DNA of 64,000 bases from Procambarus clarkii. Lineage: Eukaryota > Arthropoda > Malacostraca > Decapoda > Cambaridae. Positions 1,061 to 43,439 of this stretch are shown here, one piece after another. The position numbers and the translations under genes are program-made. A model generated the notes under the pieces. That model made no database searches. It was not told the origin of the DNA and saw only the letters and a list, made by a program, of their open reading frames with translations. Position 1 is the stretch's first letter. Each line of letters opens with the position of its first letter. Location of the stretch: NCBI RefSeq assembly GCF_040958095.1, contig NC_091227.1, forward strand, positions 19,659,210 through 19,723,209. Reading direction: 5' to 3'.

Positions 1061-1062
1061 AA

Positions 1063-1083
1063 TAAGATGGGCATCCCTTACAG
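1063..1083 (+). promoter_or_regulatory. Conserved splice acceptor of zinc-finger exon A
   Basis: Acceptor GATGGGCATCCCTTACAG (1066-1083) directly precedes the open frame. It is purine-containing rather than a polypyrimidine run. The same block recurs before exons B and C almost unchanged and before D and E in weaker form. A second AG lies at 1065-1066, 17 bases upstream of the used AG. Confidence 0.75.
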
Positions 1084-1668
1084 ATGCAACTGAACAGGGA
1101 AGAACAAACGGCTGAAGGAGCAGCAGCCACAGGCGATGAGGAGGGCTTCACTTCTGTCAGCGAGTTACATCACTGTCCCTTCTGCCCTTACAACACATCC
1201 AAGAGCTTAATGTTAAAGAAACATATTCAGACGCATTGTCTAGATAATGCATATTCTTTATCACAGTTGATGCTGATTGATGACAAGACCCGATATCGAG
1301 CTGCTTGTGCTGCTGCACCAAGTAGGGGAAAACAGTATTCATGTTCAATCTGCCCATTCACTGCTTCGGAAAAATGTGGTCTGAAAGTTCATATGCGAAC
1401 TCACACTGGCGAGAGACCATTTGCATGTCCTCACTGTCCATCTAAATTTACCCAAAACGTTCATCTTAAGGATCATCTTCATATACATACCGGAGAAAAA
1501 CCATATACTTGTCCACATTGTCCATTTCGCTGTGCTAATAATAGTAGTATTCGGAGACACATTAAAACTCATACTGGAGAAAGGCCATATAAATGTGAGT
1601 TTTGCTCGTTATGTTTTATTCGGTTGTGTCAACTAAAGCAGCACACACTAACACATGCAAAGTCATAA
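1084..1668 (+). CDS. Alternative terminal zinc-finger exon A (five C2H2 fingers) of a BTB-ZF-type gene
   Basis: This is a 194-residue 3'-terminal coding exon read from the AG at 1083 in phase 0 to a TAA at 1666-1668. It carries five C2H2 fingers: CPFC...HIQTH near residues 32-53, CSIC...HMRTH (88-108), CPHC...HLHIH (116-136), CPHC...HIKTH (144-164) and CEFC...HTLTH (172-192). Fingers 2-5 are joined by TGE[RK]P-type linkers, typical of tandem DNA-binding arrays. A loop of roughly 35 residues separates finger 1 from finger 2, unlike the sister exons. The first codon is ATG, but the conserved acceptor just before it argues that it is an internal codon, replacing the valine seen at this place in the other five exons. 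In lola-like genes such exons supply the DNA-binding half of one isoform, after a shared BTB dimerisation domain; that 5' part is not in the window. An independent small zinc-finger gene is the less likely alternative. Confidence 0.85.
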   Translation: MQLNREEQTAEGAAATGDEEGFTSVSELHHCPFCPYNTSKSLMLKKHIQTHCLDNAYSLSQLMLIDDKTRYRAACAAAPSRGKQYSCSICPFTASEKCGLKVHMRTHTGERPFACPHCPSKFTQNVHLKDHLHIHTGEKPYTCPHCPFRCANNSSIRRHIKTHTGERPYKCEFCSLCFIRLCQLKQHTLTHAKS

Positions 1669-4489
1669 TTATATTCTTGATTATACAGTATATATGTGAT
1701 TCATACAGATTTATCTTAGAAATTTACTTTATTTTGAAAAAGTGTGCAGTAATAGGAAAAATTAATTCTAATATAATGTATCAAAGCAGCATAAGCAAAA
1801 CACATTTATTAGTCTTACACCATTCCCATTAAAAGGGAATGAGAAAGGCACTTAATCCCCAAAGCAATAAATGTATGTAAAGTTTACATACTCTAAATAA
1901 AAGTTAAGATGGCAATTGTTTGTAGGGATTAAAATGGTCTTCCATTAAGCATTTTCTTGAGTTATCAGAATATACAGTACTCTACTGTATTTGTAATGTC
2001 TCATTAGAATTATATGAGCATAAGACTCGCATAAAATGAGTGAAAATGTGAAGGGTGGCATATCAAACTGTGTTGATACTAAAATACAACATAAAACTTT
2101 TTGTTATTGATGTTAGTTATGCTGGTAATCTTACTAAATTTGTGTTGAAAAGGTTGATTTGAACATGAAATAGTTGTGACACTTGTGAATGTTGAGTCAG
2201 CAGGAAGAGTATCATTTGGCCTAGCTCGGGTGTCAGACTCATTTACTGTCACGGCCCAGATTTCATGTGATACTACATGATGTGGGCCATGCCAAGGAAA
2301 ACCTTCCCCCTTCACGAGTGAACCAGTTGTATCAGAAAGAAAACGACAATTTTTACCTTATTGCTTGGCATTACTACTTCCTAAGACTTGATATCTCTAG
2401 GTTTATCACATTGCATCAAAGTTTGGAGTAAATGACTGAGCTACAGCAACCTTGAGTACTGAATTTAGGTGTGCATATGCAAATTGAAAACAATGCCAAG
2501 ATTTGTTAATGTAGGAACAGGCACCAACTGTTTATTTCATTATGTTCTTCCAAACATGGACATAATCTTTGAAGCAAAACACTTTGATCTTAGGATACTG
2601 TAATTTGGTCCTAGAGACTCACAAACTGTGCCAACAGCTGCATTTAAACTTTTCCCCACAACACAAATGCAGTGTAACAATTATTTCTAGCCAAAGAAGT
2701 CCTGGTACAGTACTTAACTAATAAAGAATAGGTTATAACAAAATTAAGAAATATACAGTATCTGAGTATTTAAAGTCGGTACAATATTTGAGGCTCTTTT
2801 TTAAATTTATAAATCATGCTTCAATAGTTTTCCGAGTGGAAATATCATAAAATTCAGGTATGTCCTGTGGGAATTTCAAGGTTAAAATGTACGAAAGACT
2901 ACTGTCTTAAGAGTTGCTTCTCAAAAGGCTTGAAGCAGTGTGCACATTGTGGGCTGCTTATAGTGTGGTGGTGGGCCTCGTGTCTGACACCCCTGGTTGA
3001 GCTGGTAACTGATTGAAGGGTAACAAAGGTGACAGGGATATTACCTTCGTGTTAGGAAATACAAAAATATTCTTGCCAACAGAGTAGTTGACAAGAGAAC
3101 ATAGTGTATACTGTACCTTCACCATTAGATGGGTTAAGATTTTACAGGAATACTTTTTTCCTGTAACTACAGTTCAATAATTTGAAATACAGGTACAATA
3201 TACAGTATTACTACAGACAGGTAGATAGTGACGGACAGAGATTGATAAAAACAGTGGCACAGAGTATGACAGCGAAGGAGGGAGGTGTGGAGAGGCCACA
3301 AATTAAAGGTGTGACAGATCAGAGTGATGGGGATGGGGGTTAAGCCAACCAGGATATCTTAACATTCAGTACAATATAGCAATTTGTCGTTGCAAATTAA
3401 AGTTATTCGGTTTAAACAGGCAGTGGTAGACTGCAGGTCAGTGACTGGAGTTGGTAAAGGTATACAGTATTGTATTTTGTTAATTAAGGGGCCAATATTT
3501 CAGTATAAAAAAAACTCGCATTATAGTAGATTAATCCAGCATAGTTTGGCAGTGTTTTCTGACAAGTATGGGCAGGGATAGTTTAAGGTAAACCTTTACA
3601 TATACAATGGTTAATTTTGGATTTGGAGATTTTTCTTTCCTTTATACATATATATTACAGCATTGTTGTTTAAGGTATATTGTATCACTTCTGGTGATAT
3701 TCTTTAATAGTTTTTACTTTTAAAGCTTATCTCCAGAACTGGTGTATTCTGCCATAAAAAATTAAGAGTTAATAATTGTATGCCTGTCTTGAATTCAAAG
3801 ATATACTACTGCTATATTTAGCTGAAATTTACAAACAAAAATAAATTTAAATTAATGAATTTAGCTTTTTCATTTTTGCTTTCCTGGGTAAGCACCTTTT
3901 ATGATTGTAAGTACAGTATTTTGCTCATGGATATGTAGTACATACTGTACTTATGATTGTTATTTATCAAAGAATCATGGCTGATGGTATCAAATTTGGA
4001 AAAGTAAAGTGCCATTCCGTTTTCAAGTGAGCTGTTGAGTGAAACAAATTATTAAACTTGACTCTAATTCAAAACTGAAAAATTCTTTAATGAAGCACTT
4101 GAAACTTAATAATGTAAAGCCTTAAATAAGTAAATGTGTGTATAATTAATACTGTATGCACATTTGATGAACAAGTGGCTACTGGGCTACAAGGAGTGGC
4201 AGGAATTAGGAATTACTGTTAAATGTGGAGAGGATTGTGACGTCAGGCATTACAGAATAAGATGAGTACTACAATATTTCTAGGAGCCCGCCCACCCTTG
4301 TTGTCTCCCGGAAGCTATCTTACTGAGATGACTTTCAACTTCTGGGTCACATCAGTTGCAGGAGTCATTTAGGCTTACTGTAGATCAGAGCCAGAACCTG
4401 GCTCCCCCCACAGAGGTACAGAGAGATGGGGACTATTATTGCCCCTATCTCTGATAGTGTTACCTCCATTTTTTAATTTAATCAACCGT
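1669..4489. other. Intron or 3' UTR and spacer after exon A
   Basis: AT-rich, no coding signal. Candidate poly(A) signals AATAAA occur at about 1866 and 1897, roughly 200-230 bases after the exon A stop, so exon A could end transcripts here. A moderately GC-rich block at 4370-4460 before the Tigger-like element may be another old repeat. Confidence 0.5.
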
Positions 4490-5157
4490 CTCTGTGGAAT
4501 CCGGAGACGGTTCAACAACTGAAAATTAAGAAAACAAAACATTTTCCCATAAGAAATACAGGCTGTAATGTAAATTGAATTAATCCATTCCACACACAAA
4601 AATATTAACTTAATACATTTTATACATAGTACTACTCATATTTTGTATAGTACAGTATGTACAAGTATATCTTACCTTCACTGAGAACTCTTGTTGGCAT
4701 ATGGAAAATGGTGATTAGGTTTGGGGAAAAGGTGTTAGTGTTTGGAAGGGGAGTCCCCTTTCAATATAACATCAGGCAGTGATGACATTTCTGGGGTACT
4801 CTTTCTCACATTTGGCAATGCCACTAGGACCTGGTTGTGTGGCCATTACCCACGGAGTGATACAGTATATAATACTGTAATTACTTTTATGTTCAGAAAC
4901 TAAAAAAATCACAAAAAAAAATCACAAAGAATTAAAGTGCAGCCGTCACTAGGCAAGACATACAGTACGGGTAAACTGAGGGGCACTTCGCCCGTGCCAT
5001 CAGAACCACGCGCTTAGCTGACCCATACGTGTGTAAACCAACTATGAGAAGTGAGGCAAACCTCGAATACCGAGTCAAATTTTTAGAAGAAATTGAGCTC
5101 GAAAACTGAAAAGTTAAAAAAAAAAAGAGGGGCATTCGAAAACCGAGGTTCCACTGT
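4490..5157 (-). mobile_element. Tigger/pogo-like DNA transposon remnant
   Basis: The right end reads ATTCGAAAACCGAGGTTCCACTG-like sequence (5135-5157), the inverted form of the CAGTGG-ACCTCGGTTTTCG terminal repeat typical of Tigger elements. The left part (around 4500-4570) and the internal words at 4540-4860 recur in the same order at 25740-26060, showing a shared family. No intact transposase frame is left here. The left terminal repeat is degraded. Likely a decayed copy inserted in the intron between exons A and B. Confidence 0.7.
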
Positions 5158-5773
5158 TGTATAATACCCATTGAGAGTCTAATTCACAAAATATCAAGCA
5201 TGTGTTCAGATATTACATTTTGCTGTTGCAACCCTTATTGTTTCCACAATATGTATATATCATATGACAGAATATTTGTAATTTTTGCCTTATTGAAGAT
5301 TGACAGATCAACTGTTGAAGAAATGGCATAGATCAACTGTTTAAGACATGGCATAGCTTATCACTAGACGATCGAGTATTATAATATGACATTAGCTCGT
5401 TACATTAAATAAACAAACAAATTCTAAAGGCATGGCAGATGTTACTTATTGTAACATTTATGCTGTAGTACCTGAAATATACTGTACTCGGAAACAAGTC
5501 TTGAATTTTGTTTTTAACAATTACAGAATAATGATGACATTAGATATGTACTCCTAATCTGGGAGACAATATCATCTAAGTTGTTTCAGAAATGCAATTT
5601 TTTTTATTGGCATCTTTGCACCTTAAGTGTGTGAATAACCAGCCTTTAACATACTTAATACTGTATTTAAGTACTGTACAAGATATACAAAATATATTTT
5701 CAGAATTCTGTAATGATATTTGAGCCCATTTGCTTTAGTATTAAGAATTTATAACTCGCAATGTTGTATAATT
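5158..5773. other. Intron sequence before exon B
   Basis: AT-rich, no feature seen. The reading frame of exon B stays open upstream to about 5720, but that extension crosses the conserved acceptor and is not expected to be exonic. Confidence 0.5.
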
Positions 5774-5777
5774 GATA

Positions 5778-5797
5778 CAGCTGGGCGTCCCTTACAG
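5778..5797 (+). promoter_or_regulatory. Conserved splice acceptor of zinc-finger exon B
   Basis: CTGGGCGTCCCTTACAG (5781-5797) matches the acceptor block of exon A at 14 of 17 bases or better by eye. A second AG is at 5779-5780, again 17 bases upstream; using it would give a stop within seven codons. Confidence 0.75.
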
Positions 5798-6298
5798 GTA
5801 ACCATGATGAGTGACAGTGACAAGACTAACCAAGAAGAATCGCCAGGGGCTGAAGACTCTTTCATCAGTGGTGCTCAGTTGAACCAGTGTTCCTACTGTC
5901 CATATTTAAATTTTGATAATGATGCCATGTTGCAACATCTGATTACACACACGAAAGAACAAACATGCTACTCATGTACAGAATGCCCTTTTCGTTCTTC
6001 CTCGAAAATAAATTTTGCCAGTCACATTCGTTCTCATAGTGAAGAAAAGTCATATCCTTGCAAGTACTGTCCATTCAGAACTACCTTTGAATATAATTTG
6101 AGAGTTCATATGCGAACTCATACTGGTGAAAGGCCATATGCATGCTCTTACTGTCCATCACGATTTGCACAGAAGACCCACCTAAAATACCACCTTGCAA
6201 CTCATACTGGAGAAAAGCCCTTCCAGTGTCTTCATTGCACACTTAGATTCAGTCGGATGAGTAGTTTAAAGAGACATAACCGTGTTCATAGTAAGTAA
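5798..6298 (+). CDS. Alternative terminal zinc-finger exon B (five C2H2 fingers)
   Basis: Phase-0 terminal exon of 166 residues, from the valine codon after the acceptor to TAA at 6296-6298. A leader of about 30 acidic and polar residues (SDSDK, EESPGAED) precedes five C2H2 fingers: CSYC...HLITH, CTEC...HIRSH, CKYC...HMRTH, CSYC...HLATH and CLHC...HNRVH. The first two linkers (TKEQTC, SEEKSY) depart from the TGEKP consensus, while the last two keep it, so fingers 3-5 probably make the main DNA contact. The third finger has asparagine at helix position +3, as in exons C, D and E. The protein ends two residues after the last histidine (VHSK). Start chosen because of the acceptor, although the frame is open 78 bases further upstream. 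Same inferred role as exon A: one isoform-specific DNA-binding module of a lola-like regulator. Confidence 0.87.
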   Translation, partial: VTMMSDSDKTNQEESPGAEDSFISGAQLNQCSYCPYLNFDNDAMLQHLITHTKEQTCYSCTECPFRSSSKINFASHIRSHSEEKSYPCKYCPFRTTFEYNLRVHMRTHTGERPYACSYCPSRFAQKTHLKYHLATHTGEKPFQCLHCTLRFSRMSSLKRHNRVHSK

Positions 6299-7347
6299 GT
6301 GGTTTACATTAGTATCTCACTTTATAGAGACAGTGTGTCCTTGCTTGAACGAACCACATGGGCAAGGATGATTCGTTTCATTCGGGATTTTCTTCGACCT
6401 GTCAGACCCCAGGTAACCCCCCATCCCCACCCCAGGAACAAAATTCAATGGGCCTACATTCACTATAATTCATATGAAGGCTTGTGACTTACCTTACTAT
6501 GAGAGTAGTGTAGTGAATTATCTTCATTAATAACACTGAAGCACATTTAGGCAAGTACAAATTCATTATAACACATCCTTTTTCACATCTATATTAACCC
6601 TTTCGCGTCCCCGGCAGGCTGGCCGCCGCATACCCCAAGGTATCCTGAGCGATGTTTATACTCTCAACTTTTTTACCTCAATTGTCATGCTATGCCGTTC
6701 AATTTGGTATCAAATTGTTTGCAATAGAATGCTGTAAAGGAATATTTACATACAAGAACAAATATAACAACAACATTACCAATACCAAAAAGTATTGGTA
6801 AGATAAAGTACATACAGTAGAGTGGCCGCCTCACACCTGATGGTCCGGGTGTTGCAACATTGTCATTAGTACAACTGCTGTCATCCTCATCACCTCATCA
6901 GTATGATGTCATTTTTGAGAGGCCCTTGTGTAGTACTTGTATAACACAAGAGCATTATGTATAGCCACAGAGAATGGGAAGACGTTAGTGCACATTTTAA
7001 AACAAACCGCATAATAATCAGATAATAAATGGAATTTTTACAAATATTACATAATGACCAGGATTTACACAAAGAAACTCTACCAGTCTCGATATAAATA
7101 TTTACAAAAACTTTATTCATTATACATTTTTCATTTTGTCTAGTATAGGATAGAGCAATCATTGGGAAGTAATTTGGTATCCAAATTATGTATATTTTAT
7201 CATTATTGAAAGTAAACAAGCAAAATATTGAATTATCTCACCAAACTAGTGAAAGAGAAGGGAGGGAAGAGATCCACCAGCATCCTCCCTCTCTCTTGCC
7301 ACAATTGTGGCGTGCCTCCTGATGTCAAGTGGCAACTACGTAACATA
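6299..7347. other. Intron sequence after exon B
   Basis: No coding signal. A short GC-rich block at about 6597-6650, including CCTTTCGCGTCCCCGG, stands out from the AT-rich surroundings and may be a fragment of a dispersed repeat. No close AATAAA follows exon B in the first few hundred bases. Confidence 0.4.
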
Positions 7348-7690
7348 TTTGTCGTCAAATTTCTATAAATGTATTCAACTATTTATTTCAGTGCTGATAA
7401 TGCTATAATACAAACTTTTTATTTTTATGTAGATTTCTATCAAAAAATAATAATTTTACGCCATATGTCCGATTTATTGAGGTTACTATGCTCAAATAAA
7501 CCCCAAAACCATTACCCAAATGAATTTTAAATTATGTATTTTACTAATATTTATACTTAATCTAAAATTCATTTGTGTAATGGTTTTAGGGTTTGGGGTT
7601 CAATTGAGCACAGTAACCTCAATAAATCGGACATATGTAATTGAAAATAATTGGAAGGCTTATGATAGAGCGGAATTTGATGACAAATGC
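7348..7690. repeat. Foldback element with long inverted arms
   Basis: The segment 7463-7530 (from CATATGTCCGATTTATTGAG) is the reverse complement of 7562-7637 with a few mismatches and small gaps, around a loop of about 32 bases. An outer pair, TTTGTCGTCAAATTT near 7349-7363 and GAATTTGATGACAAAT near 7672-7687, is also inverted. The whole unit is about 340 bp with no frame, like a non-autonomous foldback transposon. Confidence 0.75.
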
Positions 7691-9162
7691 TTGAAATAAG
7701 AAATATGAATTGAAGAAACATTGAACATGTTTTATATTTTTCCAAGTGATTTTGGTATCAAAATGTGCACAACAATTGTTTTATCATTTGCACTATTAAA
7801 AGTATAATAGTGGTTGGCTTAAAGTAACACACAAAATTTTCCTATTTGGATGAATAAAATTTTTGTCTCTGTGGAAGTGGGGATGATATCAATTTATTCA
7901 CTAAAGTCGGAATACTGAATGCTGTTTTTTTAATACATTACTTTGTATTATGTGGTCTAATTATTTTAAGTAAGAAAACTCCAAATTTAGCTAAAGACAG
8001 TAAAAATCTTGCTGGTTCTTAAATCTTGATAAATCAGAGCAGGTTCTGTCCCAGTTAGTCTGACATACTGTATCAAAGTTCCACTGTATATGTACCTCTA
8101 AAATAATAATGACTAATACTTGTATATCTGTTCTGAAGACTTTTAGTAGTACACATGAATAATACAAGTAATTGTATTCCTGTATTAAACACACCGATTT
8201 CTCTTCTCACGGACAATCATTTGTTTTACTCTGTTGTAATGACACATTTACTACTAAGAGTTATCTTACACATCTGCATTTAGTAAGAAATATTGAGTTA
8301 TACCTTTATTATTGCACAAACCTTTTACATTTATATTATTTCAAATTTTTGATGGAGCTAGCTGTGCATCCTCAGTTTTAAGTCTGTTTTCCAAATTTTG
8401 TGGGAATTTGTGAGTAGCTTTATTATTTTATATACAGTACTGTACTGTATTTTGATTTACCAGTTATATGTTTGTTTCAATGAAATGAATGATATTTAGA
8501 GTCATGACAGCTCCTCTTTTTCATTTACAGACGACTGTATTCAATGCATTTATTTTATTGCATATACAGAAAAGAGTACTGTATAGAAAGTGCTTGAACA
8601 GAGATGGGCATAGATTTTATAATTTTACACTTTAAAGAGTTCCCATGATGTTAAAACACATCATCCATCTCAAAATTCCTGAAAATCAGATTATTTTTTT
8701 GATCAGTGTGGGTATAGCTTATGAAGGGACCAACAGAAGTATCAGGGGAACTATCAAGAGGTAACCTTGGACTACCTATCACTGAAAATTATACTTGCTG
8801 TGCTTGTGAATATTTTCACAATGGTTTGCAAGTTACCTACCAAAAAAAGTTTAAAAGTTATGCTTGTTTTCTTTTTTCAGCAATATAGAGCAATCATGTA
8901 CTCACTTTTCCATATTTTTTGTTTCCATTTATGGTGAAAAAATAAGAGGAATGTTGAAATGTTCATAATCATTTATTCAACTCCATAATGCATAATCTAT
9001 TACTAAAACACTTTTTGTTTTGAATCTGTAGTCTAGCAAAGTCGTTTAGAAACATTTTGACACCAAATTTATAGTTGTAACTCAAAATTAACCGAGAAGA
9101 ACATTTTAGTTGTCACCACAGCCTGTCCTCTTGAACGCTCACAATGTACGCTCACAATGTCA
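7691..9162. other. Intron sequence, nothing recognised
   Basis: AT-rich with scattered TACTGTA/TACAGTA words (for example around 8439-8451). No frames with domains and no clear repeats. Confidence 0.4.
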
Positions 9163-9275
9163 CTAAACTGATGTACTAAATTGCCCAAATCTAACCAAGA
9201 ACCCATGAATAGAAAATGGGACATCACATCAAGTTTGGGAGCTACTGTACTATGATTTTTAGTACATCAGTTTTT
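9163..9275 (+). mobile_element. Small TIR element (MITE), copy 1
   Basis: About 113 bp bounded by CTAAACTGATGTACTAAA on the left and TTTTTAGTACATCAGTTTT on the right, which are inverted repeats of each other. The interior contains TTGCCCAAATCTAACC and AGAAAATGGGACAT. An inverted copy lies at 10389-10500. Confidence 0.75.
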
Positions 9276-9974
9276 GGCCTTAGTGTATTTATACATCAAA
9301 ATGTGATGTACTTACTATATGAGAGGACGGGTTGGTTACAAAGTGGGACTTGAAATGTCCAGAACATTTCTAGTTGTGTACGTACCAATGGGTCAGAATG
9401 CTAAAGTGTGAGGAAACATTTTTATATAATAATAATAATAATAAATAATATTTATTTACAAGAAGCTACAATGGGTATGTGAGATTACAAAACATTTGTA
9501 TTTCTTGCAAAGCCACTATGCTTTTTTATTTTTTATGCAGTCTTGCATACTGCATCAGTAGGTTACTGGCATTATCTAAATATTTTCACCACTCATGAAA
9601 ATGATTAATAAAGAATCAGAAATCTAAATAAAATATGAATATTAAATATTACAGGCAAATATATGGTTTGAAGAGGGGGTTGGGCCCAGGAGCTATGAAT
9701 AACTCACTTTTCCGAGTTTCCCACCACTGTTTTTAACCAGAAAAAAAAATTACTTTCCCTATATGGCATATTTCAGTTAATTTCTTGCCTGAAAACTTAT
9801 TTTATTAAACATAATGCAAGATAGAAATGTAATAAATAAGTTGGTTCAAATATATACATCTCTGATAAGAGTAGATTCAGCTATTGTTTTAATGGTGTTT
9901 CTGTAAGTCATTTCATTGTTTAGCAGTCAAGTGGCTGACCATCAGCCTATCTAAATCTTCCTACGTGCCCACCA
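9276..9974. other. Intron with AAT microsatellite
   Basis: A short (AAT)n run at about 9427-9450; otherwise AT-rich with nothing recognised. Confidence 0.5.
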
Positions 9975-10640
9975 ACCCATATTTGCTCATCCAGCTCACC
10001 TGCTTGAAAGCCCTCTAGCCTGCCTACCCCACCCCACCTGCCCTCTAGAAACCCATCCAATCATCTCGCCTACCCGCCCTGCCTGGCCAATCCATCATTC
10101 CATCCATCGAGCTCGCCTGTCCACTTACCAGCCATCCTCCCCTTTTCAACCTGTTCGTCCAGCAATCCATCCATCCAGCCCAACCCACCTGCCCAATCAG
10201 ATTCTTGGCCATCTAGACTGCCCGCCCTTTCACCATCCCACCTAGCCCTCCTGTCTGGCCCTCCTGAACCTACCTTCCTGCCTCCCCACCAACCAGCAAT
10301 CCATCCATCCAGCTCACTTGCCTACCAGCCATCTCAACCCTTCCTCTTAAATAGTACATTGCATTTTGACATGCAAGTTCTCTAATGACAAAAACTGATG
10401 TACTAAAAATCATAACAGCTTGCAAAAATTGACATGTCCTGTTTTCTATTTGTGAATCTTCAGCTAGGTTAGGTTTGGGCAATTTAGTACATCGCTTTAG
10501 TGATGAGAGTGTTCAAGAGGCACTCACCCTGCCTGCCTGTCAGTTCGTCTGCCTCATTCCCCCCCTGCCAATCAGCATTCCATCCATCCAGTTCACTAGC
10601 CTGCCAGTCTACCCGCTCATCCCAAACCATCCAGCCTGTT
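9975..10640. repeat. Degenerate C-rich CCATCCAT-type repeat
   Basis: Two C-rich blocks (about 9975-10345 and 10510-10640) are built of loosely repeated words such as CCATCCATCCAGCTCACCTG and CCTACCAGCC. The MITE copy at 10389-10500 and a short AT-rich piece separate the blocks, consistent with insertion into a once continuous repeat. Frames through this region are by-products of the repeat. Confidence 0.6.
10389..10500 (-). mobile_element. Small TIR element (MITE), copy 2
   Basis: Reverse-complement copy of 9163-9275: AAACTGATGTACTAAAAATC at the left, GGTTTGGGCAATTTAGTAC near the right end. Size (about 112 bp) and interior words agree, so both copies are full length. Confidence 0.75.
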
Positions 10641-11519
10641 GCCTTCCCAAATATGACTAAAAAGTTACCAACATTGAATAATACAGTATTCTCCAGTTTT
10701 GTCTCAAAGCAACCAACCCAGCAACTGCTGGCTTACAGCGTCTGCCCGGCCAAAAATTGAGCAGCCAATCAAGTGGGCATATTCGTCATTTCTGAATAAA
10801 TGTCTTGGCAAGCTATATCCCGAATACAAGGGATAAACGAATGAAACATTGGCGAAAGCAGTATCATTGCCTGTATTATGAAGATATTTTAAATGTCATA
10901 TTTACAAAACAAGATGTATTTCAGTATCCCTCAGAACAAAGTTATCTTCAATATAATATACAGTACTGTACTTGTATTGTCATAAATATTTTTTTTTGAT
11001 CCGACAAAATAAAAATACCCTGTACATTAAGTTACGAGTTTAAAATTTCCACTTCTCCCAGACGATCAGTGGCATAACTCGCATAAGGTGGTATGCAGAT
11101 TTTCACTTATCTTAATATTTGGAGCTTTAAGGCCTTGTGTACAACCACTTGGTTAGGAGCTGGGTGAGGACCAGGTGGTCATGCAACAGTACACAGTGTG
11201 TCTGTCCTATGAAATTGTTGCCATTGTGATTTCTTTTGGGTTGGAGTCAGTTTTGGCTTGTTTGCTTGGATCTATGGAATGTTTAGTGGTACTGTGTATT
11301 TCACTACACTTGAAGTTTAAGGCTTGGCTAGGGTTTCAAGTGGGCCACATCTACCACCACTTTTGGCTTTTCTGTGTTGTCAGACCCAAGTCAAGTGGTG
11401 CTTTATTATCTCCAGGATCCTGGAGGCCAAATTTTGTCATACTTTAATGACTGGCCCATTTGTGCTCCCTGTTGTCAGAATTGTCTGCTAATTAGGGATT
11501 TTGTGCTTTCACAGTTGGT
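10641..11519. other. Intron sequence, possible old repeat from 11170
   Basis: AT-rich to about 11160. From about 11170 the base composition becomes more balanced and runs into the LINE fragment at 11520; this part may belong to the same insertion but I cannot find a protein match. Confidence 0.4.
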
Positions 11520-11890
11520 ACTTGGAGCATACCTGGAGAGGGTTCTGGGAGTTCTGCTTCCTATATCCAGCCTGAGGTCAGGCTCAACTTGTGATAATTT
11601 AGTCCAACAAGCTGTTGCTTGGAGTGACCCACAGGCCACTATATATCCACTTCAGTGGAGTGGAGTGATCCACTACATTTCGGTTGGTCTGGCACTTCTT
11701 ACAGGAACTTATCCAATTACCTTTTGAAGTTCATCTGTGTTCCAGTAATATTTCTAATACTTGCTGGGAGAGTACTGAATAGCCATAGACTTCTGATGTT
11801 CATACAGTACTCTTCGATTGTGTCAATTGGCAATCAACTTCTTCCTATGAGTTTACAGGACTACCATTGCCTAGTATTACAAGGCCTATG
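11520..11890 (-). mobile_element. CR1-like LINE 3'-end fragment
   Basis: Read on the minus strand, the segment gives the C-terminal tail of a non-LTR reverse transcriptase: EEYCMNIRSLWLF, LPASIRNITGT and a stop-broken LDKFL / VPDQP. The same tail pattern (FKRELDKHL, PDQPGCD) occurs on the + strand at 62166-62330. Stops and gaps show it is dead and 5' truncated. Confidence 0.7.
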
Positions 11891-13116
11891 CCATTCCTGT
11901 TGAGACACTGAACACCTTTGTTGCCTGAATTTTGCCTGCATAGTCTTTCCATTGGGCCAGATTTGGCTGATGGACGTTTACCACCACCTGTGCAGGTTGG
12001 CACTTCATTGCAACAGATGTGGCCTCCTTGAGGCTTATGGAGGATTTTGATTTGCTATTTACCAATTCAGACTCTTCGGGTTCAGTTCCGTCACTAGAAT
12101 TGTTAACCAATGCATTGAAACTCAATTGGAGCTTGTTTCCAGTTACCATATGTTAATTTTAGTTATCACCCAGTTTTTATACAAATGATGAAAATATAGT
12201 TATAATAGATTAATATAAATGTAATGAGCAGAATTTTTTTCATGGGCCTAGATTATAATTATTAATCACTTACTATAGATGAGGTTATCTTGCATCACCA
12301 GGAAGGTAATTATCATCAAATCACAATATGGCATTTCTCACCAGTCTACACTTTGAACTGTGCCAAAACATATTTATATATAATATAGGTGTACTGTACA
12401 TACAGTATTACAATGAATGTCTATATGCAGTCTTCAATAGTTTTTCATCAACTATGTATACATAAATTATTTTACACATTGTGTAAACTAAAGTGAAACA
12501 GCAAAAATACATATACACTAAATCGTTTATCACAGCTTGATCCATGACTTGGTTTGTCAGCAAATATTCCTTACATTTTGCATGCACATTGATCTCTTCA
12601 TAAGAAAAGTTTTTTTCTCTTTTTGTGCACAACCAGGGTACCTTTGATCAGAGGAGAATACTGTACTGTATTACATGTTTAGGAAGTAAAGGATGCACTT
12701 CTCTAGAAATTATATTTTTTAAGTGGATTACAGTACAGTATTTATTTACATTTGCTGCAGATAAAAGGTACTAGCAAAAACAAGGATTATTTAATATGTA
12801 CGGTACTATACTTTATTAAGTCACTTCAAAGATTTGTGTCATTACTTTATACAGAACAATTGACAAGGTTCTAACATAATTTGTAATTTGTGGTATTATT
12901 GCACGCACTGTAATGTAAATCAAATTCTTGTTTGTGTACTAGTCTCTGGATAAAAAAAATTTCATTTCAGTTTCCCTCTGTTACAGTAATTGTAAAATTA
13001 GTGATAAAGAGTGGAAAAATATTGCCATCATTTAAGAGCAACTTTACTGATATTTCAATCATTGCTGTGCACACTGTGCTCTATAATTGTAATACTGTAT
13101 ACTGTATTCATTTTTA
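11891..13116. other. Intron sequence before exon C
   Basis: AT-rich with several TACAGTA/TACTGTA words (12400-12420, 12660-12740). No coding or repeat signal recognised. Confidence 0.4.
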
Positions 13117-13117
13117 G

Positions 13118-13138
13118 TAAGATGAGCATCCCTTACAG
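13118..13138 (+). promoter_or_regulatory. Conserved splice acceptor of zinc-finger exon C
   Basis: GATGAGCATCCCTTACAG (13121-13138) differs from the exon A acceptor block at one base of 18. A second AG sits at 13120-13121, 17 bases upstream of the used AG, preceded by an in-frame TAA. Confidence 0.78.
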
Positions 13139-13465
13139 GTGCGTGTGAATAATGATGGTTATGCGAGTGACAAGAGAGGAGCATCTGGTGTGGGCACCAA
13201 CTTTGAAACTATCGGCACACTACACCATTGTACTTTTTGTCCTTTCACCAGCCCCATTGATGATGTTATTTTGAAACATATGTATATTCACAAAGAGAAG
13301 CCACATGCTTGTCCACACTGTCCTTATCGTGCCACTTTAAAAGGAAATCTTACTATTCATCTTCGTATGCATACTGGAGAGAGGCCATATGCTTGTTCAC
13401 AATGTGACTATACTACTTCTTATAAAAGTAATATGAAAAGACATTTGTATAGGCATAACAAATAG
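13139..13465 (+). CDS. Alternative terminal zinc-finger exon C (three C2H2 fingers)
   Basis: Phase-0 terminal exon of 108 residues starting with a valine codon (GTG) and ending in TAG at 13463-13465. After a glycine- and charge-rich leader of about 30 residues come three C2H2 fingers: CTFC...HMYIH (about residues 33-53), CPHC...HLRMH and CSQC...HLYRH. The linker after finger 1 is shortened (KEKPHA), lacking the threonine-glycine pair; the second is TGERPYA. Fingers 2 and 3 have the KGNL and KSNM helix form with asparagine at +3. No methionine opens the frame, so translation must come from an upstream exon; this is strong evidence that it is an exon and not a small intronless gene. Fewer fingers than A and B suggests a shorter DNA target for this isoform. 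Confidence 0.87.
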   Translation: MRVNNDGYASDKRGASGVGTNFETIGTLHHCTFCPFTSPIDDVILKHMYIHKEKPHACPHCPYRATLKGNLTIHLRMHTGERPYACSQCDYTTSYKSNMKRHLYRHNK

Positions 13466-14502
13466 ATCATTCAGGTATAGTGAATCTGTTTTGTTGAGAT
13501 ATATATATATATATATATCATAGTATATGATTAACACTGTTCCAACTAAGCATTTATGTACATTTGCAATTTCCTTCAGGCTTCAGTCAAGGCATCCATT
13601 ATATTATGTCCTATGTGAACTGTATCATGCAGTAATATAACAACCTTCCAGGAAGGCATTGCTATAAAGTGGCATGTATGAATGTTGAGGAAAATAATGT
13701 ACTAAGTTAAAGTATTAAATTTATTCTTTACTTAAAAATAGTATACTTATGACAGGCCAAGGAAAGGATTCACAGGATAGATCACCTCGAAGGGATGACT
13801 AAAATGAGCACCTTAACTCTCCCACAATGAGGTTCACAATACATAGACCAGACATGAGTAGTTTTAGCCAAATGGTCAATAACTTGAAGTTGCACAGTGA
13901 AAGGGTATGGTTAACCGTGATACTAGACTAACACAACTATAACACGGATGCATAAAAACAAGAATTGTATGGTAACTTTTTGCACTTTGTTGAGTATTTA
14001 ATTATCAATACATTGATTTATGTACCTTTTACTAGGTAATAAAGCAATAATTACACTATTGGAAATGTGTTATTATCCACCATTTGTCAAAGGTCATATG
14101 CAATCACAATTTCCTTTAAACTGTGATGTTATAGAGAATAATTTTTCTGACAGTTTTGTTGAGACATCTACAAAATTGTGAGTTTTTCCACACCATATTC
14201 CAAATGATTAAAATTTCTCATGGGTGGAAAATTGTTCCGACTTAGGCCAGCTAATACTGGCATGACTGATAACTTTTTTTTGGGTGGGGTGGGGGGGGTG
14301 AAGATATAGAAAAACTATCAACAATTTAATTTGATACATAGTAGTTTTGATGGGTAAGATCTCTAAATATGGATACTATGTTTCATTCATTCTTACAACA
14401 GAAAGTACATTAATATTAATTAAATATTAAGAATGAATTAATTATTAAGTTTGTTAGGTCCAGGCAAATTAATGGACCTTGATAAAACTATGTATGATAG
14501 AC
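13466..14502. other. Intron after exon C
   Basis: Holds an (AT)n run at about 13498-13518 and a G-rich patch at 14281-14299 (GGGTGGGGTGGGGGGGGTG). A possible poly(A) signal AATAAA is at about 14038. No coding signal. Confidence 0.5.
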
Positions 14503-14650
14503 AGTGATGGATAGTTGGAACAAACGAGGTGGTGGTGGATACCAAAACAGGAGTTTCAAGCTGTCATATGACAGAGTACTGGAAAGACGGGACACCACGA
14601 GCGTAGCTCTCACACTGTAACTATCCTTAGGTAATTACACACATTTTCCT
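14503..14650 (+). mobile_element. 3' end of a CR1-like LINE, short copy
   Basis: The words GATAGTTGGAACAA, GAAAGACGGGACACCACGAG and CTTAGGTAATTACACACA match, in order, the last 140 bases of the LINE at 42138-42905, including its 3' tail. Only the extreme 3' end is present, as expected for 5'-truncated LINE insertion. Confidence 0.8.
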
Positions 14651-15104
14651 TAATTCCTGAAGTCTATGAGACAGTCTACAAGTCTGGAGTCTATCAGCAT
14701 TAAGCCTTGTGATTAACTTGTGTTTTTAGAGAAGCATTTTTTTGGTTTGTTGATAAACACTGGCCCAACTCAAGTCATTTTGAAATCACACATGCCCCTT
14801 ACAATATTGCAGTGATAAAAACAATGTCAAATAATTTTTTTTTTTATTTTACAATAAGTTTTGTTCTTTTCTCAGATATAAATTATGACATTTTATTCCT
14901 ACAAAGTTTCAAAATGACTACACATGACATACTGTAATGACCTCAATATACAAGTAAATAGGTGTAGCTTTTCAAATGGAATTTTATATAAAGTCTCACA
15001 GTAAGAGCTTCACTATGAGCATTGTTTGGTTTAATTTCATATATGTTAGATGACTTCATATGATAATAGTAAATTAAATGTTACCATCTGTTATTTTGAG
15101 TACT
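14651..15104. other. Intron before exon D
   Basis: AT-rich, T tract at about 14836-14848. Nothing recognised. Confidence 0.4.
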
Positions 15105-15129
15105 ATAAGAATAGTGGCGTCCTCTACAG
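15105..15129 (+). promoter_or_regulatory. Splice acceptor of zinc-finger exon D, weaker copy of the motif
   Basis: ATAGTGGCGTCCTCTACAG (15111-15129) keeps GGCGTCC and TACAG of the shared block. Upstream AGs lie at 15108-15109 and 15113-15114; the latter is in frame and would add five residues (WRPLQ). Confidence 0.7.
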
Positions 15130-15480
15130 GTGGGGGTACCTGGTGATGCTGAGAGTGTGGGATCTATGGAAGCTCAGAAGATCTACACTGCAACAGGCAA
15201 CGTTCATCAGTGCCCATTCTGTGAAAATATTTTCCATCGACCATTTCTCTTAAGAAGGCACATCCGTGTTCACACTGGAGAAAAACCTTTCACTTGCCCA
15301 TACTGTCCTTTTCGTTCTGCCCGGAAGAGTAATTTAAAAAATCATCTTTATATTCACACTGGAGAGAAACCATATGCTTGTCCACACTGCCCTATGCGCT
15401 TTTCACGGAAAGATCGCTTCCAAGATCACTTTCGTACTCACTCCATAAATCATCCACAGCATCATTTTACCACTTTATGA
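15130..15480 (+). CDS. Alternative terminal zinc-finger exon D (three C2H2 fingers)
   Basis: Phase-0 terminal exon of 116 residues, from a GTG valine codon to TGA at 15478-15480. Leader of about 27 residues, then three C2H2 fingers: CPFC...HIRVH (about residues 28-48), CPYC...HLYIH and CPHC...HFRTH, joined by two perfect TGEKP linkers. Finger 1 has phenylalanine at the standard core position (ENIFHRPF), while finger 2 has the family variant with the aromatic residue two places after the second cysteine (CPFRS). Finger 2 carries the KSNLK helix with asparagine at +3. A histidine-rich tail (NHPQHHFTTL) follows the last finger and is unique among the six exons. No start methionine is available near the beginning, again pointing to splicing from a common 5' exon. 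Confidence 0.87.
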   Translation: MGVPGDAESVGSMEAQKIYTATGNVHQCPFCENIFHRPFLLRRHIRVHTGEKPFTCPYCPFRSARKSNLKNHLYIHTGEKPYACPHCPMRFSRKDRFQDHFRTHSINHPQHHFTTL

Positions 15481-17215
15481 AACTAGGTGTTTTGTGCTCT
15501 TAGTGAATTTATCTATACAGTACTGTACTACAAATGCATTCATCCCTTCCTTTCAAACCATTTCCACCAAGCATTGACTTTGACTATATCCTGTGTATTT
15601 TTCATACAGTACTATACTTAAAAAGCAATTTAACACTTGCCATGTCTGCCCATCTTTTCCTAGCCTTACTCAAATTTACTTTAGTCTAGACCAGTGTAAA
15701 AGAGTGTATTCACCATATGTTCAGCATGCCCAAATCACCAATATGTTTATCAGTACCTTAATCTTTATGGTTTATTGAATTTTGTACTCCAGATCTCTTC
15801 ATAACATTTTCAATTCTTTCTATTGTATGTCTATTGCTCCAGTGCTTGATTTTTCACATTCATGCCAATCCATCTTGCATCAGATCATAAGGGTTGATAC
15901 ACCACTCCTTCATGCAGCCCTCTGACTGCATCTAATCTTAACATTTTTATTTTATTTATTTTTGTAATCATGACTTCATTGCGCCTCCCCCTGTCTGACC
16001 CTACTTTACCATCATTACTTTTGTCCATATTCACTGTTAATAGCCTTCTCACACAAACATCAGTTAGATTTTAAATTAGTCTACATAAACTTATATCACT
16101 GGTAAAATACCTATATTATCTGCACATAATAATATAAAACCAGTCAATCAGTACACCATTAACTTGTACACATGCACTGCTATTTGTACAGAAATAATTT
16201 TACATTATTTAATAGAATTGTGCCAACTTCTTTAATGCTCATTACTCTACATAGTTAATAAAGAAAGTTGGAATGTGCTTTTTGCAATCTATAATAGTCA
16301 TGCACAGACTCGGTGCAAATATCTGATACACACCCACTTCTACCACAACCTACCTCGGTCATCACTGATAAATTTCTAAATTTTCTGTACTCTTCCAATC
16401 ACTGCCATAGTAAACTAATGATTCTATAATTCATATATTCACTACATTTCCTTAATTTTTCTGAGGTTTATTAAAAGCTTTTTTTGGGTACTCTGGCACA
16501 GTTAGCACTTTACTTCACGTGGTAAATTCTTCACAACCACTCCATTCCCATTTCTCCACTGCATTTAACTATTTCTGAATATATTCCACGAGTAATTGCA
16601 GCTTTCATACATTTTAGCTTTCTAGCTGACGTGTGACATTAACTGACTAACTTTCTAACATTAACTAAGTATAATGTCTTCCGTAGGTACTGTACATCAG
16701 TTGGTATACTATCTTGCACTCTTCCATCATCATCACATCCAGTCAGGTTCACATTTAGCAGTCTTATTACTAACAAATTCCACCTCTGAAATATTTCTTG
16801 TACCACCTCTAGCACTATGATTACAACTGTAAGACATCTTTTTAATAAAAAAAAAAAGGCAAATATAGTGTAGAAATGAGATATTTAATAAGAGCATAGG
16901 TTGCCACCAAGCCATGCAACTCGGGTGTTCAAAGGTATAGAATGACTGTGGCTTAGACACATATCCACACATGTTCTGGCAATTTAATATGTTTTAAATT
17001 GTTAATGTGTGATGATAATATCAGTTTATTAATTTGTCATATTTGAATTTATTTTTGTTTTATGTATCAATACTGGTATTTAAATTTAGCATTAGAATTT
17101 CATGAACATGGATGAGAAGCAATAACTTAAACTTTTGACTGTTTTCTGTGCATTTTTTGTTATATAACATTGATAAAATAGTAAAATACTGTCATTTGAA
17201 TTTGATTACCTGATG
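15481..17215. other. Intron after exon D, nothing recognised
   Basis: AT- and C-containing sequence with many short pyrimidine runs but no coding frame of note. AATAAA-like words occur near 16257. No repeat family identified. Confidence 0.4.
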
Positions 17216-17570
17216 ACAGGAAAAACAAAACAAAAATGTATGTGACCTACTTTGGCCGTGGTGTAGCTTGGAAGTCTAGCAATTCACAAGCGTTGAAGCA
17301 GCATTCACCCCAGGGTAGTCGATCCAGCCTCGCTGTGGGGTGGGAGTTGCTGCAAAGATATTTTGAGATTATTTCAATGTTTCTGATTTGTTTTTTTCTA
17401 GTTTTTCAGTACTATTATTCAATAGGGTATCACGAGAAATTTATATACAGTACTGTAATAAAATATGTGGAATATTGGAATGCTCAAATATATTCATGTT
17501 ACTAATATGCACACAATATTATATGCTTGGAACAATAAAATGAAGTTTTTGCTGTTATTTGTGGCATGGC
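17216..17570 (+). repeat. Unclassified interspersed repeat, copy 1
   Basis: Shares, in the same order and spacing, words such as ATGTATGTGACCTACTTT, GGGAGTTGCTGC, TTGAGATTATTTCAATGTTTCT, TGTGGAAT and AGTTTTTGCTGTTATT with 59520-59860. No frame with a domain. Size about 350 bp; family unknown to me. Confidence 0.65.
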
Positions 17571-18355
17571 ATTCTCCCCTCCTATGGTGCCACAACCACC
17601 AAGGGATGTCCCAGTCGCACATGGAGTGGAGTTCACACACACCCAGACCTTGTACCCCCTGTGCAGAGTGGGAGAAGGCCAATGATCCCCTGGGCCACGG
17701 TCTCTTCCCGACCGCCAATGTACAGGACTTTGTACCTTCGACCTAGCCCCAACAAAAGTAACCCTCTCCCAAAAGTTGCCAACCTGGCTAGCTCACACTT
17801 CCACTGCCAGGTAAACTTCAACATATTGGTACTTGGTCCCAGCTCAAGCTTTGATGGTACTCATACATGGTCATAAGCCCATGTAATCAGTTTACAAAAA
17901 GTGAAGTTGAGGTCTTAATACCAAACAATAATAAAGGAACAGAGGTTTACTAAAGCAATATTTACATATGCTTGTGGCCAATAAAATTCTAATGACAATT
18001 ACTAATGTTATGGCAATGCTTAGAAATTTGAAATGATGATTGGCAACACTGCCTAGATTCTTCATAACTACAAGCTAATAATTTCTTCTAGCACCACATG
18101 GGCTTCTTTACACTTAATACACTGATGATGAATTGAATCACATTGGATACTGGTAATTAAAAAAAATACAAAATTAAGTAAACTAGTAATTAAAAAATAA
18201 ATCGCCACTAAATTCTTAATGTACTCAACATTACGTTGCTCTCTCTAATAACTGGTTGCCTTGCCCTTATGTATCAAATATCTTAAAATACAAACACACT
18301 TGGGTATACCATAACTGAGTACTGTACAGTATTATATATATTTTATATATTTATG
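17571..18355. other. Intron sequence with a GC-richer block
   Basis: 17570-17880 is clearly richer in GC and has overlapping frames on both strands without domains; it may be an extension of the repeat at 17216 or another insertion. 17880-18355 is AT-rich with nothing seen. Confidence 0.4.
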
Positions 18356-18797
18356 CAAACAAGCCTGAATGGTCCCCAGGCATATATGCTTCTGAAAACT
18401 CTCACCCAAGAAGTGACTCGAACCCATACTGCCAGGAGCACTCTGCAACTGGTGTACAGGACCCCTTAACCACTCGACCATCATGACCAGACAAAAGATG
18501 ATGGTAGCCGAGGCTAATTCCCCATCATCCCCCCAGCACTCTGATGGTAATCTTGGGCATGGTATTTTATCAAATCACTTCATTCTTTGGGGCACACATG
18601 AGGAACACAAATGTGAACAAGCCTGAATGGTCCCCAGGCATATATGCTTCTGAAAACTCACACCCCAGAAGTGACTCGAACTCATACTGCCAGCACTCTG
18701 CAACTGGCGTACAGGACCAAGGATGATGGGGAATTAGCCTCGGCTACCATCATCTTTTGTCTGGTTGTGATGGTCAAGTGGTTAAGGGGTCCTGTTA
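18356..18797 (-). mobile_element. Two tRNA-derived SINE copies, the second with an internal inversion
   Basis: AAGCCTGAATGGTCCCCAGG opens both copies (18361 and 18620). On the minus strand the unit has tRNA-like promoter boxes: a B-box-like GGGTTCGAGTC and, further 5', a GGTCGAGTGGTTAAGG A-box-like stretch. In the second copy the promoter-side part (about 18717-18797) is inverted and so mirrors 18462-18528. Confidence 0.7.
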
Positions 18798-18887
18798 TCT
18801 GATTCCTGTCACTAAATCATGAATAAGAATAATTTTTCACAAGTTTATTGTCTAAAGGTCTAATTTGTCTTAACTTCTTAACTCCAC

Positions 18888-18967
18888 AGTCTTAACCCTC
18901 AAAGAGGGTTAAGACTGACGATGTCAGTCTTAACCCTCTTTGATGGTTAAGACTGACATCTTCAGTC
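18888..18967. repeat. Pair of nested hairpins
   Basis: GTCTTAACCCTCAAAGAGGG plus TTAAGAC forms a hairpin with an 11-bp stem; about 36 bases on, its inverted form (CTTAACCCTCTTTGATGGTT) follows. The two units can fold separately or against each other. Confidence 0.7.
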
Positions 18968-20166
18968 AACACCTTTTAATGATGTGACTGACATTAAAAT
19001 TTAAACCTTGCCTGTGCAAAAATTTTTTAATCAAATCTGTTCTTGTATGATCCATTTGCATGCAAAATATGGAAAAATAAAAGGAAATATCTTTTCTGGT
19101 TTTATATACTGCAGTAGAAATCTGGGTAGGGAAAACATTGGCTATGTTGACTATTGCTAAGATATGCAAATTGCTAACTTATGGTGAAGGAGTGAGGATT
19201 TTCATGTTCAAGATGGATGGTTTTTATGTTCATTGCTTCACTTTAGTTTCCACATTTTGAATATTTATGTTCACATACTTGACAAAAACAGCATTTGAGA
19301 AATGTATATAAACCAGAATGTAATACAGTATGTACACCTATATTGCTTGTTAACCTGGTTTTGACACTGCTCAAAAGTATCTTACATCCCACTCCTTTGC
19401 TATTACACTATGGCTGTTAATGTCATGAAAAATAGAATCATATACCAGCAGGAAACAACAAATTGTAATTTGATAAACGCTGGCCACTAGTACATGATCA
19501 CCTTATCATGTAGTAAGCAATTACAAAACAATAGCAAACTTTTTTAATGGGTCTTTGTTAACTTCATTACATCTATATACATTGCATGTACTGTATTATA
19601 ATCATACAGATACAGTATTAGGATAAAAACAGGGAATGACTTAAAATGACTAACTGCAAATTTACAAATAACTAATTACATTGGCTTAGGAGAGGAAAAT
19701 AAATATACAATATCTTCAAAGGTTGGTTATCTTCATCAACATAAGAAGATGACCAACCTTAACATGTTCATAATTACTAGTGTCCACAACACATTTTGAT
19801 TTTTAGGTAAAGAAATTGTTACTAATGCAATATTCATAAGAATCCTAAACTTGTACTTGTTAGCATTATGACTTAAATCTTAATTGTTTGCTTATCTATT
19901 TGTGCTTTACTTTCTAACTCCTCATTTCTTTAAGCAACTCCCTTATTTTTATTTAAATATATATTTGTTCATTCATGGTAGTCCACAAGTCTTCACCACT
20001 TCTTTTACGTTCTTTAATATTATGACATTACATCTTCGTATGCTGGTTTAAAATGTTTTTCACTTAGGGATTTTTATCATTAATTGTTTTAGAGTAAATA
20101 ATATCTTGCAACCTTAAAATAAAAGACTATTATGTTGAATTACTTCAGTTAATTTTGAGTGGCCAT
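18968..20166. other. Intron before exon E, with a hairpin at 19719-19760
   Basis: AAGGTTGGTTATCTTC (19719-19734) pairs with GAAGATGACCAACCTT (19745-19760) around a 10-base loop, one G-T wobble. Otherwise AT-rich with nothing recognised. Confidence 0.55.
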
Positions 20167-20167
20167 G

Positions 20168-20190
20168 AATAAGACAGGTGTCTCCCACAG
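20168..20190 (+). promoter_or_regulatory. Splice acceptor of zinc-finger exon E, motif copy
   Basis: AATAAGACAGGTGTCTCCCACAG-type acceptor ending at 20190. It keeps AATAAGA, the GGTGTC core and CACAG; an upstream AG at 20172-20173 is again exactly 17 bases before the used one. Confidence 0.7.
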
Positions 20191-20673
20191 GTGGGTGTGA
20201 AGTGTGATGGTCAAAGCATTGATGCAGAGGAAATGAATATAACAAGAAAACACACACAAGCTGTAGGAGCAACAGCAGCTGTAGGTGCTGCCACTCGAGC
20301 TGACATAAACATCAACCCAGGAAGCAAGATCCATCAGTGTCCATACTGTTCCTACTCCACCCAGCATCTAACTGCTATACGTTGCCATGTTCGAACACAT
20401 ACTGGAGAAAAGCCATATGCATGTCCTCATTGTCCCTTTCGATCTGCACTAAGTGGAAACCTTAAGCTTCACATTCGTTCTCATACTGGAGAAAAGCCAT
20501 ATTCATGCCCATTTTGTCCATTTCGAGCAGCACTTAAAAGTAATCTTAAAATTCATATTCGATCCCACACGGGAGAGAGGCCCTACACATGCCCTCATTG
20601 TTCATCATGCTTTGTTCATGCCAGTCATTTGAAAAGACATGTACGGATCCACACAGCTTCATTATCAATATGA
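20191..20673 (+). CDS. Alternative terminal zinc-finger exon E (four C2H2 fingers)
   Basis: Phase-0 terminal exon of 160 residues, from GTG (valine) to TGA at 20671-20673. The leader of about 48 residues is alanine-rich (GATAAVGAATRA). Four C2H2 fingers follow: CPYC...HVRTH, CPHC...HIRSH, CPFC...HIRSH and CPHC...HVRIH, with three intact TGE[KR]P linkers, so this is a regular array able to read about 12 bases. Fingers 2 and 3 are close copies of each other (RSALSGNLKLH against RAALKSNLKIH), suggesting an internal finger duplication. Both have asparagine at helix +3. The last finger is followed by a short TASLSI tail. Among the six exons this is the most canonical array. Role as for the other exons: isoform-specific DNA binding, inferred. 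Confidence 0.9.
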   Translation: MGVKCDGQSIDAEEMNITRKHTQAVGATAAVGAATRADININPGSKIHQCPYCSYSTQHLTAIRCHVRTHTGEKPYACPHCPFRSALSGNLKLHIRSHTGEKPYSCPFCPFRAALKSNLKIHIRSHTGERPYTCPHCSSCFVHASHLKRHVRIHTASLSI

Positions 20674-31000: not shown

Positions 31001-31019
31001 TTTTTGTTTTTTTTTTCAG
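31001..31019 (+). promoter_or_regulatory. Conventional splice acceptor of zinc-finger exon F
   Basis: An uninterrupted T-rich tract (about 30999-31016) ends in CAG at 31017-31019. The shared GGGCATCCCTTACAG block of exons A-E is absent, so this exon has a strong ordinary acceptor. Confidence 0.8.
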
Positions 31020-43424: not shown

Positions 43425-43439
43425 TAGTATACTTGTACT

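Follow-up and report, generated by a model that had tools for sequence, protein, structure and literature searches.

The window analysed here is a stretch of 64,000 nucleotides of Procambarus clarkii DNA (C78:19659210-19723209 of its own genome, which comprises 4.03 Gb in 2308 contigs). Its + strand contains six C2H2 zinc-finger exons, A to F, and the roughly 25 intronic bases preceding exons A-E share a sequence block, about TGAATAAGATGGGCATYCCCTACAG, at the acceptor. The coding parts of these exons, each running to a stop, lie at 1084..1668 (A, with five C2H2 fingers), 5798..6298 (B), 13139..13465 (C), 15130..15480 (D), 20191..20673 (E), and 31020..31256 (F, with two C2H2 fingers), all on the + strand. 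Three common exons lie upstream of the window, at window-based positions -35477..-35397 (e1), -33653..-32997 (e2, the BTB domain), and -31623..-31405 (e3, the last common exon). Together they encode a common part of 319 residues with a Pfam BTB match, and in a search of solved structures the common domain falls among BTB domains only. Exon e3 ends in phase 0, which is the phase that the zinc-finger exons require; the common donor is single, and every zinc-finger exon of the gene contains its own stop. In the gene model built from this sequence, the BTB common exons are predicted to be joined to the zinc-finger exons, a plan of the mod(mdg4)/lola type with common BTB exons and alternative finger-bearing 3' exons.

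Two further zinc-finger exons, Y (acceptor -18195) and Z (acceptor -10273), lie upstream of the window and were found by the weight matrix described below. Exon Z contains a donor-like AAAG/GTAAAT and, judging from this motif, might continue past it. By strand, frame, and position, exon F probably belongs to the same transcript set as A-E. It is apparently the last exon of the array, and a finger regular expression detected no further such C2H2 exon beyond it, on either strand, to approximately +114 kb.

A sequence-only reading of this DNA had written out five acceptors before exons A-E, and all five were confirmed, with intronic ends at 1083, 5797, 13138, 15129, and 20190. On the + strand, the corresponding blocks (-25..-1 relative to the exon) occupy 1059..1083 for exon A (TGAATAAGATGGGCATCCCTTACAG), 5773..5797 for exon B (the full form, GCTGGGCGTCCCTTACAG), 13114..13138 for exon C, 15105..15129 for exon D, in which the 5' half is shifted by 2 bases, and 20166..20190 for exon E. 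All five are matrix matches, and that of C is also among the 39 exact pattern sites found genome-wide. The acceptor of exon F (30998..31019, + strand) has an ordinary T-tract, TTTTTTTTTTCAG, without the block, and serves as an internal control. When a weight matrix was built from A-E, the five blocks were the top five of 127,962 window positions (scores 21.6-28.3; next 13.1), and their leave-one-out ranks were 2, 5, 5, 5, and 7. Applied to both strands of a 264-kb stretch (the window plus 200 kb around it), the same matrix returned two new sites, scoring 19.8 and 18.5 (next 14.6), both directly 5' of zinc-finger exons. The block is present at seven of the eight zinc-finger exons of the gene, all but F. 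With a later 25-sequence matrix, the seven block exons, which are part of its training set, score 20.1-31.3, and F scores -14.8.

The block in paralogous genes and across the genome

Searches of the whole genome for zinc fingers returned large clusters on C88, C59, C49, and other contigs, and a BTB search placed paralogous common regions, with 62-81% identity over their BTB part, upstream of those clusters and on the same strand. Array sizes were obtained by merging two finger searches and are minimum counts: at least 41 exons on C59, at least 33 in each of two arrays on C88 (near 20.3 and 20.6 Mb), and at least 16, 8, 7, 7, and 3 exons in smaller arrays; six of the eight exons of the window's gene were found in this way.

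Some of the C59 copies may be assembly duplicates. Within C59:29.31-29.43 Mb, zinc-finger exons of equal score occur in pairs approximately 53-75 kb apart (29314767/29389665; 29333979/29408888; and 29378088/29431400, the last with a further copy at C5:11303690), which reflect either recent segmental duplication or assembly duplicates. A further zinc-finger array is present at C11:39.23-39.28 Mb; its sampled acceptors, L081 and L106, are ordinary tracts, and it has no adjoining BTB paralog among the matches listed.

Among the first 20 acceptors sampled in other clusters, 18 carry the block (15 by matrix score and three, with small indels, by eye), and the remaining two, L081 on C11 and L083 on C78 at 22.26 Mb, are ordinary tract acceptors without it. 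Ten of a second 20 reach a score of at least 10, a value attained by 6 of 32,890 other AG sites in the 264 kb. Five more of the second set have degenerate blocks by eye (L097, L098, L099, L102, and L103), and five are without the block (L093, L105, L106, L107, and L108, the last of which is not an exon start). Two additional last-in-array acceptors were inspected, of which L118 has the block and L117 no recognisable match. At nine constitutive acceptors in these genes (e3 in seven cases, plus e2 and e3 of the window's gene) the tracts are ordinary, and the block is found in none of the nine.

Two simple rules were considered for the exceptions and rejected. One holds that the last exon of an array is a default with an ordinary acceptor; F is ordinary, and L117 and L099 are degenerate, but L082, L094, L100, and L118, each the last exon detected in its array, carry the block, and thus the rule is not general. 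The other holds that genes with a single zinc-finger exon are without the block, which, among the matches listed, is true of L083, L093, and L105 but fails for the gene on C70 (L104).

Short patterns were also searched for genome-wide, and the resulting counts are lower bounds. The 23-base pattern TAAGNNNRGCNTYYYYNACAGGT has 39 exact sites in 4.03 Gb, and its reversed control has none. Thirty-eight of the sites are inside arrays (C59, C78, and C88), and one is on C5, before a copied C59 zinc-finger exon. A detected finger follows within 450 bases downstream in 35 of the 39, and exon C, which is not among the finger matches listed, brings the confirmed sites to 36. The patterns were designed after alignment A1 had been viewed, and eight of the 39 sites are A1 members; the fair test therefore consists of the absence of sites elsewhere and of the roughly 30 previously unseen sites. 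Similarly, pattern AAGHYRRGCRTYYYYNACAGGTG has 34 exact sites, 33 of them in arrays and one (C14) without a finger after it (reversed control, 1). With one mismatch allowed there are 102 sites, 100 of which were listed, including 66 one-mismatch sites: 26 of these are in arrays or on C5, and 40 are outside. By eye, 37 of the outside sites are one AAGCCAAGC-type repeat, and the other three have no fingers downstream. The 13-mer GCATCCCTTACAG was rejected as a marker on its own (18 sites, three of them in arrays; control, 12), and no finger was seen downstream of eight other GCATCCCTTACAG sites inspected by eye. A scan of viral contigs for the block returned 0 sites. The motif is therefore not equally frequent at ordinary acceptors (0 of 9 constitutive acceptors, against 39 genome-wide sites, of which 38 are in arrays and the other precedes the copied C59 exon), and the binding-site-like behaviour that had been suggested for it is supported.

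Elsewhere in the window there are two minisatellites, at 36811-37669 and 42953-43425, with 34-base and 24-base units, and two mobile-element remnants on the - strand, one with a weak RNase H match below the Pfam cut-off (57969-58577) and one with a CENP-B N-terminal (pogo-like) match (60245-60850). Tandem C2H2 fingers with 33-51% identity to exon E are also present on prokaryote-labelled contigs (L001-L035, including Endozoicomonas, Kistimonas, Babeliales/TM6, and Pseudomonas); these represent contamination or eukaryote-like symbiont genes and were not used in the analysis.

Constraint across the junction and acceptor type

Conservation was measured among paralogous genes of one genome. Over the seven block exons of the window's gene, positions -25..-4 have a pairwise identity of 62%, compared with a mean of 29% and a maximum of 37% in 553 upstream windows, and 0 of 3000 random sets of CAG sites reached the block identity. 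Fourfold sites of exons A-F differ at 63%, near saturation. Between genes, the block is likewise 62% identical, versus 32% for the intron at -75..-27, in a comparison of 30 of the 40 block acceptors from which ten degenerate, indel-bearing, or duplicate ones were omitted, favouring the block figure; the fourfold sites of the first finger differ at 66% (915 comparisons). Because identity between genes is 62% in the block against 32% in the intron, with fourfold sites 66% different, the block is, on this sequence comparison, under selection, and the constraint proposed by the sequence-only reading is upheld. Over -25..-4 its substitutions are 89 transitions against 88 transversions, and over -18..-4 the numbers are 75 and 42, such that the idea that nearly all differences are transitions was rejected.

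Conservation continues past the junction. Across the 40 block acceptors, column information is about zero at -26, high from -25, and extends into the exon, fading by approximately +44. The coding start had been described as diverged beyond alignment, which does not hold: among the seven exons, identity is 53% at +1..+22 and 41% at +23..+44, and falls to 27% only at +45..+66. Codon choice is also skewed. For instance, of 35 valines at codon 1, 26 are encoded by GTG and 8 by GTA (elsewhere in the exons, 15 and 8 of 55), and CTG encodes 17 of 20 leucines at codon 3 (elsewhere in the exons, 11 of 76). As judged from these alignments, constraint crosses the intron-exon junction at the RNA level. 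The layout is fixed, with a branch-site-like TRANTAAG at -25..-18, a core RGCRTYCCCNACAG running to the AG, and a conserved exon start GTGGGGCTGAACAGTGA. The TAA of TAAG, at -21..-19, is in the zinc-finger reading frame at 27 of 40 block acceptors; such an in-frame TAA would stop an intron-retaining reading just 5' of the exon.

The block acceptors are poor in pyrimidines, with 7.8 of 15 (standard deviation 1.0) at the 40 block acceptors versus 11.7 at 10 ordinary ones (p ~1e-6). C occupies -8, -7, and -6 in 24, 27, and 33 of the 40, in a run of only 3-4 bases. The earlier description of a non-canonical acceptor needs correction: the AG is canonical, and the unusual feature is the short, C-rich pyrimidine run. 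The common donors are ordinary in 9 of 9 cases, of the GTAAGT, GTATGT, or GTAATT kind. U12-type introns have the donor consensus [AG]TATCCTT and a branch site, TTCCTTAAC, 10-16 bases before the acceptor. The resemblance of TTCCCTAC to the latter made a U12 branch site a candidate, which was rejected because of the U2-type donors and because the pyrimidine run reaches the AG without a gap.

Possible roles of the block

The reading favoured here, with a probability of roughly 0.6, is that the block is a weak, C-rich acceptor cassette that a shared trans-acting splicing factor recognises and that is used for splicing in cis. It would form the intronic half of an acceptor cassette of about 50-65 bases that marks the alternative terminal zinc-finger exons of a paralogous BTB family. 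The short C-rich tract would render the acceptor weak for the general U2AF pathway, and recognition would depend on a sequence-specific trans-acting factor common to all of these genes, whose action at the branch-site/tract region would be assisted by the exon start. A candidate is a poly(C)-binding protein with KH domains, of the PCBP/hnRNP K type, together with exon-start enhancers. How frequently e3 is spliced in cis to a block exon, as against a default exon such as F, would be determined by the level of the factor, and small differences and transcription order would set which exon wins. The features established by sequence are the block, its conservation at near-saturated divergence, its restriction to arrays, and the RNA-level constraint on the junction, and the reading is further supported by the prediction of two unseen zinc-finger exons of the gene from the A-E matrix.

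Several observations weigh on the other side. Degenerate blocks occur in the same arrays (L097-L099, L102, L103, and L117), such that the full block is not obligatory. The C run is short (3-4 C) and is broken in D, E, and Z, which makes the PCBP/hnRNP K suggestion thin. The exon start encodes a recurring peptide, V-G/R-L-N-S-D, and part of the conservation may be at the protein level. Acceptor use, the branch point, and the bound factor are themselves putative, and the low strength of the acceptor might be maintained with no dedicated factor.

The last point is the substance of the main rival, considered unlikely although better placed than any other alternative, in which the acceptors are held equally weak so that no exon always wins. 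Pyrimidine content that is both low and even fits this view, as do the length of the arrays (at least 41 exons in the largest) and the ordinary tracts at F and in three genes for which a single zinc-finger exon is among the matches listed. However, many sequences are weak, and strength alone leaves one specific sequence and the synonymous exon positions unexplained; moreover, the C70 gene (L104), also with one detected exon among the matches listed, carries the block.

A second alternative is that the exons were duplicated together with their acceptors, the block being left-over homology that gene conversion may have homogenised. That the exons are duplicates is clear, and several pairs in the C59 array are near-identical. 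However, this is improbable given that the block is still 62% identical where fourfold sites are near saturation both within the gene (63% different) and between genes (66%). The intron just upstream is at background and the block edge at -26 is abrupt, and conversion would need to act on about 50 bases across chromosomes.

A base-pairing selector of the Dscam type, raised by the sequence-only reading, would have each block pair with one docking site and so present one exon to the donor. A shared sequence 5' of each alternative exon (seven of eight in the gene) fits such a scheme. However, no docking site was found above column-permuted blocks (fraction 0.65) in the gene's own 13-kb intron 3, which follows the last common exon and was where a complementary sequence had been expected, nor in the common exons or the 264-kb stretch. 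The first 1 kb of nine donor introns showed no shared motif and no pairing with the blocks. These tests covered ungapped pairing, with paralog introns over their first 1 kb, and those of intron 3 and the donor introns gave a fraction of 0.65 and p 0.40 against permuted blocks. One paralog (L085) shows complementarity between its blocks and the end of its last common exon (GGGGATGC vs GCATCCCC), but this candidate was rejected, as it fails at the last common exon 3' ends in seven of eight genes. Additionally, the 42-base element showed no consensus pairs and no compensatory base changes indicative of an RNA hairpin or palindrome. With a single common donor and a stop in every zinc-finger exon, the use of one exon per transcript needs no selector, and docking is given little credence.

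About equally doubtful is a dual-site ratchet, a minor proposal in which CAG/GTRRG exon starts regenerate a donor and allow stepwise resplicing along the array. Recursive splice sites combine a tract with CAG/GTRAGT. The block exons, which have no long tract at their acceptors, begin with GTRNG in 25 of 40 cases and with GTRAG in 8 of 40, and exon Y has CAG/GTGAGT. Against this, 15 of the 40 do not fit, exon A begins with ATG, position +6 prefers G over T, and conservation extends past the footprint of a donor.

The sequence-only reading had also raised a trans-splicing signal like that of mod(mdg4), by which the block would mark acceptor RNAs for joining to a donor RNA produced separately. 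The general plan, in which common BTB exons are followed by many alternative 3' exons, is the same. However, every array that could be assigned to a BTB gene lies downstream of its own BTB exons and on the same strand, no opposite-strand alternative exons occur among the assigned arrays, and the donors are ordinary in 9 of 9 cases. No positive sign of trans-splicing was found in the strand and position of the assigned arrays or in the donor sequences, and this account is improbable. The least credible proposal, that the block is coding and the true acceptor is an AG approximately 17 bases upstream, accords with an open frame through the block in all five window exons A-E and with an upstream AG at 39 of 40, but it is contradicted by the in-frame TAA at -21..-19 in 27 of 40, by the frame shift that the upstream AG would cause relative to the phase 0 end of e3, and by would-be codon third positions that are among the most constant in A-E.

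A broader form of the weak-cassette reading, in which one trans-acting regulator and one cassette serve well over 100 zinc-finger exons in about ten BTB genes as a family-specific splicing code, switching their repertoires together, is tentative and rather less likely to be right than wrong. Even in flies, it is an open question how a terminal exon is picked out of many at BTB-zinc-finger loci. In the present family, block exons, of which several genes have dozens between them, are set apart by a compact element from the ordinary acceptors of those genes, with F as the internal control, and arrays of up to at least 41 exons per gene provide a large natural set on what the element tolerates. 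If a factor binds the block, the DNA-binding domains of many BTB factors would be determined by a single protein, and if the family-wide code is true, a crustacean would gain Dscam-scale diversity of transcription factors.

Comparison with known systems

In the literature searched, mostly without subscription papers, no description of a shared acceptor cassette of this kind was found. The nearest decapod case is a fruitless-like BTB gene of Penaeus monodon, likewise with alternative zinc-finger ends, whose isoforms arise as one or the other of two zinc-finger exons is chosen in cis; that locus has two exons only, and the available part of the report describes no acceptor motif (PMC8858584). 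In mammals, alphaCP/PCBP proteins bind C-rich tracts and enhance the exons so marked; use of these acceptors depends on the sequence-specific KH protein, which helps U2 recruitment, and the likeness lies in acceptor tracts that are C-rich rather than U-rich (PMC4797308). As far as the available text of that study goes, its targets range widely over cassette exons of unrelated genes, whereas here one family and its terminal exons are concerned, with a longer fixed motif and putative binding.

In lola and mod(mdg4) of Drosophila, one BTB common part is combined with one of many 3' exons encoding different DNA-binding fingers, and the available portions of the accounts document trans-splicing, with mod(mdg4) exons on both strands (PMC12692577, PMC4667647, PMC11426971). 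The present genes resemble them in having BTB common exons and many alternative finger-bearing 3' exons. They differ in that the assigned arrays are on the donor's strand and that one acceptor cassette is common to several paralogous genes; the resemblance to lola is one of gene plan, the domain here being placed among BTB domains only. Dscam-type clusters have a shared selector sequence before every alternative exon and a docking partner. The shared sequence before alternative exons is similar, but here no docking partner or pairing was found, and the block is at the AG itself and is common to genes on different chromosomes. Finally, doublesex has a regulated weak 3' splice site with an exonic enhancer, which governs the choice of a 3' exon. 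The combination of a weak tract with an exon element is common to both systems; however, a single exon is involved in doublesex, whereas here there are at least dozens, and the conserved part spans the junction.

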